Made by a program: the position numbers and the translations under genes. Source: a virus. From it: 57,180 nt of DNA. The notes beneath the pieces were generated by a model, which was not told the origin of the DNA, ran no database searches, and saw nothing but the letters and a program-made list of their open reading frames with translations. This document shows, piece by piece, positions 18,124 through 45,278 of the stretch (positions are counted from its first letter, which is position 1; each line of letters begins with the position of its first letter). The DNA lies in IMG/VR virus record IMGVR_UViG_3300034198_017991, positions 1 through 57,180 of that record; one strand, given 5' to 3'.

Positions 18124-19923
18124 ATGTCTTGTTCACCTGACAAAATCATCGCTGCTCTTCACGAGCAAACCGAAATCATCACCGACATCGTCCGCGAAGA
18201 AATCGCTGACACCCCGTCGATTGCCCTCCGCCTCGTTGCCGACGGCGGGACCGTTCGCCGCTCCGCCAACAACAGCTCCGTGATCTACGGAGAGGCCAAG
18301 CAGGCACCTGTCGCCTACAACAGCGCCGACCACGCCGCCCGCGACCTTGTCGCCGGTGGACAGTTCAAGGGCCGGACGCTCCACGGCACGAACGGCATCT
18401 TCAACAACCTCCAGAACGACATCGACGACAACGCCTGCCACGGCCAGTTCACGATTGACTTCTCGCAGGGCTTCCGCATCCGCGAGTTCGAAGACTATGA
18501 ACTCTCCGTGGACACCCCGGTCAAGTGCGCTCGCGATCTCGACCGTCTCGGCGAAGCCCACATTCGCGGATACTTCCGTGGCATGAAGAATCAGTTCAGC
18601 CGCTGGGGTATGCAGAACTTCAGCGACAACCTCCTGAACCTGATCATCCGCCACGGCGAAGCGAACGCCAGCGTTCTCGGTGCCGACACGTTCAACGTGA
18701 CCGCCGGTGGCTGGGAAGCTCCTCCGGCCTACCGCATCTCGATCTTCTTCCTTCAGGAGTATCGTGACCACATCGTCGCCGAGATGAAGGGTAAGGGCTT
18801 CCGTGTTTCGGAAGACTACATGCTCACCGTCGAGATGCCGCGTCAGGACTGGATCGACGCCGTCATCAAGGACAAGGAGCAGCGTGACATCACCGGCACC
18901 CAGTATGTCAACGAGCAGTTCAAGGACACCGAAGGTCCCCTGAAGGGCCGCTCCTACGGGGTCTACGGCGGCATCAAGTGCTACTTCAACGAAGAGCCCA
19001 TCCGTGGCTACTTCAAGCGGGTCGGCACCAGCTCCTACAACTTCGTCCGCGTCTACCCCTACCTCAACACCATGGGTGAAAACGGAGGTATCATCAGTGG
19101 TCCGAACCACGACTACCGCCGTGACACCATCATCGTCGATGGCGTCTCCTACGACATGGTGACCCTGATCCCGCACGTCGACCCCCGCTCCTTCAAGCGT
19201 TACGGCCTCGTCAAGCCGATCAAGCCTGTGGGTGGCGACAACGCCGGTGTGAACTACGAAGTCCGCGTCATCGACGGTCCTTCCCTGGGCTGCAACGACT
19301 ACAACGACAAGTTCAAGCTGGCTGCCCGCCACGAGTTCCGCTTCAAGGCCATGTATCCGGAGTTCTCCGGCTTCATCGCCTACCGCTCCTCGCAGCGCAG
19401 CGGCTACGTCCTCGAAGTCAGCTCCCGCGCCCGTTCGCTCTCGGCCGCTACTGCAACCGCCAACCCGGAAGCGTTCCGCACCACCGGCGTCGACGACTGC
19501 ATGGCTCAAGAGTGCGCCCAGTGCGGCCAGACCTCCGAGAACGACGGCACCTGCATCGACCCGGATGACGCCACCGCCGACACCCTGGGCCTTCAGCCCT
19601 CCGGCGCTGTCACTGCGGTCTTCGAAGGCTCGGCCTACACCCTGCGCCTCGCGGTCACCCGCGAAGGAACTGGCGGCCAAGCGGTCAGCGTCAGCTACGC
19701 CACGGCCGACGTTGCCGGTGGCGACAGCAGCGATGCCATCACCTCCACCTCCGGCACTCTCACTTGGGAAGCCGGTGACATGGAGCCGAAGTTCATCGAG
19801 ATCCCGGTCCTCTCGACCGCCGACGACAACGACGACTTCACGGTCACGCTGTCCTCGCCGAGCGGTGCGACCCTCCGTGCTGGCGCGAACGTCGCCACGG
19901 TGACGATCAACGACATCCGATAA
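18124..19923 (+). CDS. Major capsid protein with C-terminal Calx-beta domain (599 aa)
   Basis: Residues 1-475 form the likely capsid shell protein. The protein is highly expressed in appearance: a structured leader upstream, strong codon bias and a hairpin downstream. Position after the scaffold supports the call. After a Cys-containing linker (CMAQECAQCGQT, GTCIDPDD) residues of about 495-599 are a recognisable Calx-beta domain (AVFEGSAYTLRLAVTREG, then SGTLTWEAGDMEPKFIEIPV, DFTVTLSSP and VATVTINDIR). Calx-beta domains bind calcium or mediate adhesion, and here would project from the capsid surface. A long antisense ORF over this gene is an artefact. Confidence 0.85.
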   Translation: MSCSPDKIIAALHEQTEIITDIVREEIADTPSIALRLVADGGTVRRSANNSSVIYGEAKQAPVAYNSADHAARDLVAGGQFKGRTLHGTNGIFNNLQNDIDDNACHGQFTIDFSQGFRIREFEDYELSVDTPVKCARDLDRLGEAHIRGYFRGMKNQFSRWGMQNFSDNLLNLIIRHGEANASVLGADTFNVTAGGWEAPPAYRISIFFLQEYRDHIVAEMKGKGFRVSEDYMLTVEMPRQDWIDAVIKDKEQRDITGTQYVNEQFKDTEGPLKGRSYGVYGGIKCYFNEEPIRGYFKRVGTSSYNFVRVYPYLNTMGENGGIISGPNHDYRRDTIIVDGVSYDMVTLIPHVDPRSFKRYGLVKPIKPVGGDNAGVNYEVRVIDGPSLGCNDYNDKFKLAARHEFRFKAMYPEFSGFIAYRSSQRSGYVLEVSSRARSLSAATATANPEAFRTTGVDDCMAQECAQCGQTSENDGTCIDPDDATADTLGLQPSGAVTAVFEGSAYTLRLAVTREGTGGQAVSVSYATADVAGGDSSDAITSTSGTLTWEAGDMEPKFIEIPVLSTADDNDDFTVTLSSPSGATLRAGANVATVTINDIR

Positions 19924-19934
19924 TCGGATCAACT

Positions 19935-42725: not shown

Positions 42726-45278
42726 TTAGAAAGGTTCGTCTTCACTGTCGTCATTGTAATCGCACCCAAGGACCTGCGGATACTTCCCGCCGAACTCCAC
42801 ACGCACGATGTCCGGGGTCCTCAGCTCGTTGGGTGCCCGGAGAAGGGCATCCTCCACAGTCTCAGGGATGGGCTCCTGGCCGCCACGGAACTCCCACCAG
42901 CGAGCTGTGTCGCGTTTCGCTATCGGGTTGGAGCTTCCGAAGAACTGGAACTCGTGGAACGACTTCGTCCCGGCGAAGTAGGTGATGCGGAGGTAGGCAT
43001 TCCCCTTCTTCGACATGCCCTTCTTGTAGGTGATCCCGAGCACGCCGATCTCCTTGGTGACCTTCGGGACGTCGCCGCCTTTCATGATCTCGTCCTCAGC
43101 CGCTGTCTTCTTGATCGTCTGCGGGGGAGGGAACTGGTAGCCGCAGTCAGGGCAGACCATGGTCCTCGTGTGGATGTAGGAGTGGCACTCGGGACATTCC
43201 TTCACCGGAGCTTCACCCTTCTCCTTGTCGCCCTTCCTTCTCGGCTGCGGGATGATCGGCGCGTTGACTGCGCCCAGTCGCCGCGTGTTCCCGGCGAAAT
43301 CGAGAATCAGGCAGTTGTGAACGAGCAGACCTTCGCAAGTAAAACAATGTCGGGGTCCGCAGTTGAGAATGTCCCATACTTCCCTTTCGGTTTGTATGAT
43401 GGCTGGTAAAATCGCTCTACTACCTGCTCTTCCGAAAACCCTCTTCCAAACAGATTGCGTAGAGTGCTGTCTGCGTATCGTATCTCCGGATACTTTTCTC
43501 GGAATAGGTTGGATTTTATGTTCAACGGCTGGTGTCGTGTGTGAGACACCTGCTGACTTGCGGTAGAGTAGCGAATGTTTCCAGGTTCGTAATGGCCGTT
43601 GTTGTCTATCCTGTCTATCTGCAAATCTTTCCGAAGCCCCAAGTTCTCTTGAATCCAGTCCGCCATTTTCAACGGACTTTCGAATAAGAACTTTATACCC
43701 CTTGCACCATAGTTGTAGTAGGATCTGTCGTGCTCTCTCGTGCAGCGAGACATGGCGGAATAGCATCTTCCGTATAACCATTGGGGATGAGTCCTCTGCC
43801 TGAACTGCTTTCTTCCGCATTTTCGGCAACCGGCTGATCCAGCCAGTAAGCTTGTAAAGTCGTGCAAGTATGTCCTCTCGCACAACACGCATTGAGTGTG
43901 AGCAAAAGCCCTCCCCTGCGGCCCTTTTGGACGCTCTAGTATTTCTGAAGTAATTATCAATTTCCCGTATAGGCGACCCATCTGCTTCTGTGACACATAT
44001 CGGAGCCTGTTCGACGAGAGACTGCCAGAGGGTCTTCCACCCTTCCTTCGTTTTGACCCTGTGGTCTGGTGTTGCTGTGAGTCCGGTATAGGTAATTGTG
44101 CGCTTGATTCCCCGGCATACTGCTCCTGAGTGGCTGACAAAGTCAAGCCCGTCCCAAACTTTCATTTCTCGGGTAACCTGCTCGATTGGTATCAACCCAA
44201 CATCCGTTAGAACCCTCTGTCCCCTCGCGATGCAGTCGTCCTTACCAGGGAATGTCCGCGTGCCGCGAACGCAGCCTTGAATCCACAGGCTTGTGGACTG
44301 GGTGGCCCTCGCCCATGCGATCATGTCCAGCGCCGGAAAGTTCCATCCCCGGCCATAGAGTCCGTTGTTGATCAGCAGCCGGTATTTACCGGCCCGGAAC
44401 TCCGCTTCTTTCTCCTCGCGAAAAGCCATGCTGTCTTTACCGGTCAGCATGATCGCCGGAATACCGCGTGCATTGAAAAGCTTCTCAAGCTTGTATCCGT
44501 GCTTGATACCTGAAGAGAACAGCAGCCAGTGCTTTCTATCAGCCCCGTATCGGATACACTCATCGACAACGGCTCTGTTGAGTTCGTCAGTATCCGCAAT
44601 CTCTTGGAGCGAGTGCTCGTCGAAGTCGCCGCCCTTCATGGCGACCTGGGTGATGTCGATCTCCAGGCATGCTCTCTTGTTGACCAAACGGGACAGGTAT
44701 CCGTGCTCGACAAACCAGTTGAATCTTTCCGTAGCCGTCAGGTCGATGCAGATGTCATCCCACATCTTGGCTTCAGTTAGAAGCCCGGTCCCCAGACGAT
44801 ACGGCGTTGCCGTAAATCCGACCACACGGATTCCTGGGTTGACTACGCGCAGGTCGTTGATGAATTTCTGATAGAGGGTCTCTTCCCGTGGTGACACCAG
44901 GTCGCACTCGTCAATGATCACCACATCGACAGACCCGAAGTCGGCCGCTCTTTTCGCGCACGATTGGATACCGGCGAAGATGATGGGGAGGTGGGTGTCC
45001 CGCTTTCGAAGACCGGCGGAGTAGATCCCACACGGAGCTGTGGGCCAGTAGCGGAGCAGCTCTTCGCTGTTCTGGTCGAGAAGCTTTGCGTCCTGGGCAA
45101 GCTGGAGGACCTTCGTCCCGGGGATGTAGCTCACCATCCATTTGATCAGCCTGGCCATGACGTATGACTTCCCTGTCCCTCCAGGGGATACCGCCACTGG
45201 ATTACCGTCATTGTTCATGAGGTAGTCCTTCACCGCATTCTCCAGCTCTTCCTGATAGGCTCTGTCTTGGTGTGTCAT
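42726..45278 (-). CDS. SF2 replicative helicase with intein insertion (850 aa precursor; 543 aa after splicing)
   Basis: Extein parts: Walker A SPGGTGKS (residues 31-38), DECD box (123-126), TATP (156-159) and motif VI with QGCVRGTR shortly before residue 349. A zinc ribbon (CPECHSYI, VCPDCGYQFPPP) and an acidic C-terminus follow. Residues 349-655 are an intein: Cys349 opens block A (CIARGQRVLTDVGLIPIEQV), block B has TATPDH, and the end is DILNCGPRHCFTCEGLLVHN, with the penultimate His and final Asn before Cys656. The insertion interrupts motif VI, a typical intein site, and must be spliced for activity. The intein interval overlaps an HNH gene in another frame. Confidence 0.9.
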   Translation of the reverse strand: MTHQDRAYQEELENAVKDYLMNNDGNPVAVSPGGTGKSYVMARLIKWMVSYIPGTKVLQLAQDAKLLDQNSEELLRYWPTAPCGIYSAGLRKRDTHLPIIFAGIQSCAKRAADFGSVDVVIIDECDLVSPREETLYQKFINDLRVVNPGIRVVGFTATPYRLGTGLLTEAKMWDDICIDLTATERFNWFVEHGYLSRLVNKRACLEIDITQVAMKGGDFDEHSLQEIADTDELNRAVVDECIRYGADRKHWLLFSSGIKHGYKLEKLFNARGIPAIMLTGKDSMAFREEKEAEFRAGKYRLLINNGLYGRGWNFPALDMIAWARATQSTSLWIQGCVRGTRTFPGKDDCIARGQRVLTDVGLIPIEQVTREMKVWDGLDFVSHSGAVCRGIKRTITYTGLTATPDHRVKTKEGWKTLWQSLVEQAPICVTEADGSPIREIDNYFRNTRASKRAAGEGFCSHSMRVVREDILARLYKLTGWISRLPKMRKKAVQAEDSSPMVIRKMLFRHVSLHERARQILLQLWCKGYKVLIRKSVENGGLDSRELGASERFADRQDRQQRPLRTWKHSLLYRKSAGVSHTTPAVEHKIQPIPRKVSGDTIRRQHSTQSVWKRVFGRAGSRAILPAIIQTEREVWDILNCGPRHCFTCEGLLVHNCLILDFAGNTRRLGAVNAPIIPQPRRKGDKEKGEAPVKECPECHSYIHTRTMVCPDCGYQFPPPQTIKKTAAEDEIMKGGDVPKVTKEIGVLGITYKKGMSKKGNAYLRITYFAGTKSFHEFQFFGSSNPIAKRDTARWWEFRGGQEPIPETVEDALLRAPNELRTPDIVRVEFGGKYPQVLGCDYNDDSEDEPF
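43307..43981 (-). CDS. HNH homing endonuclease nested out of frame in the helicase intein (224 aa)
   Basis: The start ATG 43981 begins MGRLYGKLIITSEILERPKG, the usual opening of phage HNH endonucleases; a longer ORF extends to 44146. A zinc-binding set (CVLCER ... CRKCGRK) precedes YSAMSRCTREHDRSYYNYGA RGI, and the HNH core is IDRIDNNGHYEPGNIRYSTA. It stops at 43307, seven bases past the intein end (43314). It reads in the +1 frame relative to the helicase and sits inside the intein interval (43314-44234), so one stretch of DNA encodes both intein filler and the endonuclease. Likely cleaves intein-less alleles. Confidence 0.85.
   Translation of the reverse strand: MGRLYGKLIITSEILERPKGPQGRAFAHTQCVLCERTYLHDFTSLLAGSAGCRKCGRKQFRQRTHPQWLYGRCYSAMSRCTREHDRSYYNYGARGIKFLFESPLKMADWIQENLGLRKDLQIDRIDNNGHYEPGNIRYSTASQQVSHTRHQPLNIKSNLFREKYPEIRYADSTLRNLFGRGFSEEQVVERFYQPSYKPKGKYGTFSTADPDIVLLAKVCSFTTA
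43314..44234 (-). mobile_element. Intein coding interval (307 aa)
   Basis: The boundaries are set by Cys349 (codon at 44234-44232) and Asn655 before Cys656 (codon at 43313-43311), giving 921 bases, exactly 307 codons. The N-terminal Hint block and the C-terminal block are conserved, while the central 170-190 residues in this frame have no intein-like motifs. That part overlaps the HNH gene in another frame. Homing by the HNH enzyme would copy the whole interval. Confidence 0.85.

Follow-up and report, generated by a model that had tools for sequence, protein, structure and literature searches.

A Hint intein in a phage helicase gene with a predicted HNH homing endonuclease gene nested in the +1 frame

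The helicase gene of the virus studied here is interrupted by an insertion which is very probably a dual-coding mobile intein, with a splicing Hint domain in the helicase frame, a separate HNH homing enzyme produced from the +1 frame by internal initiation, and homing into empty helicase genes. In the helicase frame, the two Hint halves would fold around a floppy linker of 190 residues, excise and rejoin the helicase. Read one base further on, the same DNA appears to encode a homing endonuclease of HNH type that is complete from its zinc knuckle through the DRID...N core to the C-terminal helices and would be made as a separate protein from an internal start at or near ATG 43981. The enzyme is predicted to cut the intein-less helicase gene at the junction of GKxx and CLxLDF, and repair would then copy the intein and the enzyme gene together. 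The in-frame linker would have no role beyond staying open.

The helicase gene and its two overlapping products

The window, i.e. the whole stretch of 57,180 nucleotides that was analysed, carries the following features of the interrupted gene (all on the minus strand):

42726..45278, minus: SF2 helicase precursor ORF (ResIII/RadD-like), intein included; 850 aa, ATG start
44235..45278, minus: N-extein, 348 aa, C-terminal end ...RGTRTFPGKDD directly past helicase motif VI
43980..44234, minus: Hint N-terminal half, intein residues 1-85, with Cys1, block A and block B TPDH; assigned by AF2 pLDDT and Foldseek matches to PDB inteins
43404..43979, minus: in-frame central linker, intein residues 86-277; predicted disordered, amino-acid-neutral, stop-free
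43314..43403, minus: Hint C-terminal half, intein residues 278-307, with blocks F/G and His-Asn, then Cys+1
42729..43313, minus: C-extein, 195 aa, N-terminal end CLILDFAGN, with zinc-ribbon
43307..43981, minus: out-of-frame (+1) gene for a predicted HNH-type endonuclease, nested in the intein; 224 aa, ATG 43981, stop 43307-43309
43817..43891, minus: predicted zinc-binding CxxC...CxxC knuckle, HNH protein residues 31-55 (C31-x2-C34, C52-x2-C55)
43562..43711, minus: predicted HNH catalytic core, HNH protein residues 91-140, YGARGI ... IDRIDNNGHYEPGNIRY; most conserved region, with PHROG match

A preliminary description of this DNA had given the coordinates of the helicase ORF, the intein and the HNH ORF, all of which proved correct. 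The intein of 307 codons (43314-44234) occupies residues 349-655 of the precursor with Cys1 at 44234, and the spliced helicase would have 850 - 307 = 543 residues. The helicase ORF (42726-45278) matched Pfam ResIII (2.4e-14), Helicase_C (2.2e-6) and a PHROG DNA helicase family (2e-69). Elsewhere in the window (18124-19932), two ORFs of 599 codons each occupy nearly the same bases on opposite strands (18124-19923, plus; 18133-19932, minus).

The Hint ends had been recognised correctly from Cys1, TPDH and the His-Asn before Cys+1; none of block A (CIARGQRVLTDVGLIPIEQV), block B (TPDH) or blocks F/G (VWDILNCGPRHCFTCEGLLVHN) is damaged. The nucleophile Cys1, found with block A (CIARGQRVLTDVGLIPIE), was invariant in an alignment of 34 rows. 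In TPDH (residues 55-58), which has the TxxH form of block B, T55 and H58 were invariant and D57 nearly so, and the C-terminal end reads CEGLLVHN followed directly by Cys+1. AlphaFold, run with an alignment of 34 sequences, modelled both ends with pLDDT values of approximately 96 (residues 1-80, 94-97; residues 281-307, 95), as against 39-50 over most of residues 91-270 of the in-frame linker (about 45). The top-ranked Foldseek matches were solved inteins or Hint-like domains, the best match of the ordered part being the Ssp DnaB mini-intein (E=8.6e-4, probability 1.0); a search of the Hint profile against PDB sequences gave weak matches only. By its residues and predicted fold, the insertion carries the signature of a class 1 type Hint intein, and the same evidence suggests protein splicing of the helicase precursor.

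The nested +1-frame HNH gene with CxxC pairs and a IDRIDNNGHYEPGNIRY core, likewise reported earlier as separate from the intein frame, is present as an ORF, and its product matched the PHROG HNH families phrog_374 (5.3e-21) and phrog_3377 (4.7e-20). The open stretch continues upstream of ATG 43981 to TTG 44146. Cys31, Cys34 and Cys52 were invariant among 29 relatives, as was Asn135 in the core, and AlphaFold modelled the product with a mean pLDDT of 85. The first His of the textbook motif is replaced by Arg (DRID) in 29 of 29 aligned relatives and also in those free-standing HNH kin for which the core was displayed; catalysis was therefore assigned by family and not by motif. Pfam did not find an HNH domain in the HNH-frame product, Foldseek gave no confident PDB match for its model, and a profile search listed I-HmuI (1u3e) at no better than E=0.26, with a weak overlap with the I-HmuI core. 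Since neither Pfam nor NCBIfam returned a useful match for the window's intein and HNH proteins, both were identified by means of PHROGs, homologues, AlphaFold and Foldseek. The translations of the intein frame and of the HNH frame retrieved the same relatives across the full intein length. From this we infer that the +1 ORF encodes an HNH-type endonuclease, for which a homing role is predicted.

Census of the intein family

A scan of IMG/VR alone yielded 314 relatives of the intein. Because a full-length query might select for open frames, an unbiased census was carried out with the first 62 Hint residues only, covering viral contigs and 84,980 prokaryote genomes; the first Hint-only alignment was too diverse as a search query and was split in two (A3, A4). 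The 320 loci obtained were collapsed at 90% DNA identity to 205 distinct inteins. A full HNH was present in the +1 frame in 158 of these, the arrangement of the window, and in the +2 frame in 17; in addition, there were 25 mini-inteins without HNH, four inteins with an HNH remnant and one ambiguous case. The canonical layout with the endonuclease in the intein frame, between blocks B and F, was found in none of the 205. The preliminary description had supposed the arrangement to be rare, which does not hold: 175 of the 205 inteins have it, making it the norm within this family. Homologues with a broken HNH frame and a conserved intein frame, which had been named there as a refutation, do occur in the form of the 29 mini- or remnant inteins, but they do not refute the reading, since a homing element is expected to pass through a degenerate stage of this kind, in which the HNH is lacking or reduced to a remnant.

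The host genes were mostly those for DNA polymerase A (150) and SF2 helicases of two kinds (50), with a few others including apparent replicative helicases; the second helicase kind and the label as replicative helicase were partly derived from motifs judged by eye. Relatives found by both translations include the DNA polymerase A inteins of Gardnerella phage AB1, Streptococcus Javan phages and APSE phages. Three-frame translation located the HNH in +1 in these polymerase inteins and in +2 in a Salmonella Jerseyvirus, and showed it to be absent from some shorter inteins. No relative of the intein was found in plasmids.

Further observations concern single loci. Bacterial assemblies of Ruminococcus, Streptococcus, Centipeda, Gardnerella, Corynebacterium and spirochaetes also harbour the family, probably as prophages (loci including L260, L262, L274, L278 and L282). 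In most phage records examined, the HNH endonuclease is unannotated. Three loci (L148, L241, L315) show frame disruptions, i.e. a broken Hint frame or a frame-shifting HNH, and represent pseudogenes or sequencing errors; the apparent in-frame HNH in L241 and L315 was rejected as a feature of frameshifted copies and not of canonical inteins. The polymerase A gene of L197 (from 3501) contains two apparent tandem inteins, the first with the HNH in +2 and the second with a +1 trace and an end near codon 575.

Selection, translation and alternative explanations

For a test of chance, the HNH codons were shuffled synonymously and stops were counted in the intein frame. For the window, 10.7 stops were expected versus none seen, none of 2000 shuffles was open, and the third frame contains 11 stops. 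Across 63 distinct inteins, 8.0 stops per gene (504 in total) were expected and none was seen, with 708 in the third frame; these inteins had been drawn from the full-length search, which possibly favours open frames, and the Hint-N-only census, which is without this bias, gave the same picture. Chance is excluded as the source of either open frame. An assembly frameshift artefact was also ruled out, because the layout is repeated in many independent phages.

Substitutions follow different frames along the intein. In the Hint ends, 56-77% of the changes (65-74% in close pairs) were located at intein codon position 3; in the centre, 49-63% (63% in close pairs) were at HNH position 3, equivalent to position 1 of the intein codons. 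Fine mapping with 39 independent pairs in steps of 8 codons placed the change of frame in the constraint at the HNH start and its return to the intein frame some 28 codons ahead of the intein end; correspondingly, substitutions in the Hint C-terminal half (43314..43403) are back at position 3 of the intein frame (f0). In close pairs, dN/dS was 0.17 for the HNH frame, rising to 0.28-0.41 in distant pairs, where saturation weakens the estimate, and 1.0-1.2 for the in-frame linker, which nevertheless is never broken. Between the window and its nearest relative L011, identity was 58% in the HNH protein, 33% in the in-frame linker, 63% in Hint-N and 81% in Hint-C. The two-frame rate comparison across homologues, proposed in the preliminary description, thus found the HNH frame constrained and the linker close to 1. 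Because the substitution pattern follows the HNH frame, the in-frame linker is a by-product of the HNH codons that need only stay open, as had been suggested earlier and as the codon-position patterns and the predicted disorder show.

Three other accounts of the insertion fit these data poorly. If the in-frame centre were itself a functional domain, e.g. a linker that tunes splicing, with both frames under sequence selection, its lack of stops and fairly constant length would be explained, but its amino acids change at a neutral rate (dN/dS 1.0-1.2), it is modelled with pLDDT values of 40-50 and it is freely deleted in mini-inteins, which makes this account very unlikely. Equally unlikely is that the HNH frame is the dead relic of a formerly in-frame endonuclease displaced by compensating indels. 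The loss of all or most of the HNH in 29 relatives would agree with decay; the low dN/dS of the HNH frame in close pairs contradicts it, and no intein of the family has the HNH in frame, whereas 175 distinct ones have it intact in another frame. HNH genes in other frames are common in phage introns, and the insertion could on these grounds be viewed as a group I intron with an HNH gene, removed at the RNA level, the open helicase frame being accidental. An Rfam intron match was absent even at E<=1, however, and the full Hint signature with its predicted fold, the evolution of the Hint ends as host-frame protein and the open frame in 63 of 63 inteins tested render this the least credible of the explanations considered.

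The main rival concerns how the enzyme is translated: it could be a Hint-N/HNH fusion arising by +1 ribosomal frameshifting from the helicase-intein frame. In the window, the open HNH frame extends upstream past the region of homology, as far as intein codon 24, so that shifting at any of codons 24-85 would suffice. Frameshifting would also suit those family members with no ATG, GTG or TTG near the HNH start, and the lack of a canonical Shine-Dalgarno sequence there; the relatives showed no conserved motif at normal spacing, but a conserved GGA 1 nt from the start position. Against frameshifting, there is a strong enrichment of ATG precisely at the HNH residue where homology begins (56 of 145, with TTG in 33 more; no ATG in the neighbouring columns -1 and +2), a residue that is mostly Leu, Ile or Thr in free-standing HNH kin; the point at which the HNH frame opens upstream varies among members, and in a fusion the enzyme would remain joined to one half of a Hint domain. 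We consider frameshifting improbable, though by no means negligible, and prefer internal initiation, by which the HNH enzyme would be made without splicing.

Mobility, known systems and meaning

Uninterrupted versions of the insertion site are available for comparison. Helicases of 59% identity in two viral contigs (L322/L323) have an empty site at the junction of GKDD and CLILDFAGN, with Gly at +1, and Nipunavirus helicases of 41% identity run uninterrupted across the junction, with Cys at +1. The nearest cultured-phage relatives of the helicase are those of Nipunavirus (Queuovirinae), which are intein-less; the virus of the window may be a distant Nipunavirus relative. The HNH-less mini-inteins are dispersed across the Hint tree (parsimony gives 20 changes, of which only 4 are forced by starred branches, as the 94 columns give low resolution), and their dispersal fits repeated loss of the enzyme gene. 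Mini-inteins near HNH-bearing Gardnerella or Streptococcus inteins (L009, 2501-2900; L262, 4001-4405), in which the HNH is largely or wholly deleted in frame, look like snapshots of endonuclease loss. The reverse, an intact HNH with a broken intein frame, is almost absent. All +2 HNH genes group together in a single clade with full support, comprising 17 distinct DNA polymerase A loci (L174, L177, L178, L185, L187, L189 and others), and free-standing HNH genes branch between the intein HNH groups. This fits at least one capture in +1 and at least one in +2; a frame switch within the family would be a possible alternative to two captures.

The closest precedent is the ShiLan domain or Pacc40 insertion in mycobacteriophage methylase genes, which contains an out-of-frame zinc-finger HNH (Arsenault, Gosselin, Gogarten 2025, PMC11855218). 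Its authors found no Hint splicing domain and thought the insert to be retained in the protein (PMC11855218). Both elements are insertions in phage genes, open in the host frame, that hide a zinc-finger HNH homing endonuclease in another frame, with a patchy distribution suggestive of homing. Unlike there, where the HNH is in the third frame, it lies here in +1 (+2 in one clade) and is flanked by full Hint blocks, by which the host protein could be restored through splicing. The dCTP deaminase intein of cyanophage CL131, for which self-excision was shown in E. coli, has an in-frame HNH (PMC6293099); like the present element, it combines a Hint intein with an HNH endonuclease and sits in a phage gene of nucleotide metabolism, but HNH and Hint share one frame there and have separate frames here.

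Several annotated records belong close to or within the family. In APSE-1 (NC_000935), the DNA polymerase P45 and the overlapping P46 'HNH endonuclease' are a family member with Hint in frame and HNH in +1, and the record annotates the two as separate overlapping genes; the host gene (polymerase A) and the site are different, and identity over the intein is 27.8%. The Salmonella Jerseyvirus 'intein-containing DNA polymerase' (L008) is likewise a Hint intein with a hidden out-of-frame HNH, but in +2, as in the separate well supported clade. Free-standing phage HNH proteins of the PHROG 374/3377 type share the zinc knuckle, DRIDNN core and C-terminal helices and are encoded by stand-alone genes, whereas the present gene is nested inside an intein. 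In the open-access literature, we found no paper explaining the APSE-1 P45/P46 overlap and none on Hint inteins with an out-of-frame HNH. A 2025 preprint by Gosselin et al. reportedly deals with actinobacteriophage inteins of non-canonical architecture, and an earlier description of the arrangement is possible.

In the usual description, an intein with an endonuclease is a single polypeptide, into which a nuclease domain has been grafted between the two halves that splice. A large phage family overlaps two genes instead, and the enzyme is therefore never obliged to fold within the host protein. It seems rather likely that these elements form a distinct, unnamed class of inteins in phage replication genes, which arose when a mini-intein captured a complete, previously free-standing gene for a homing endonuclease in another frame (at least one +1 and at least one +2 lineage), host, intein and enzyme being three products of one DNA in two frames, with expression of the enzyme uncoupled from splicing. 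Intein searches confined to the host frame would class such elements as endonuclease-less. The family offers a natural, replicated case of long same-strand overlapping genes with one frame strongly selected and the other neutral but stop-forbidden, and thereby a clean test case for the entry of free homing endonucleases into mini-inteins and for the translation of nested genes. With some 175 distinct inteins of phages and prophages that show it, the arrangement is no curiosity but a widespread selfish element with dual coding, whose nested enzyme probably spreads the insert to other phages.
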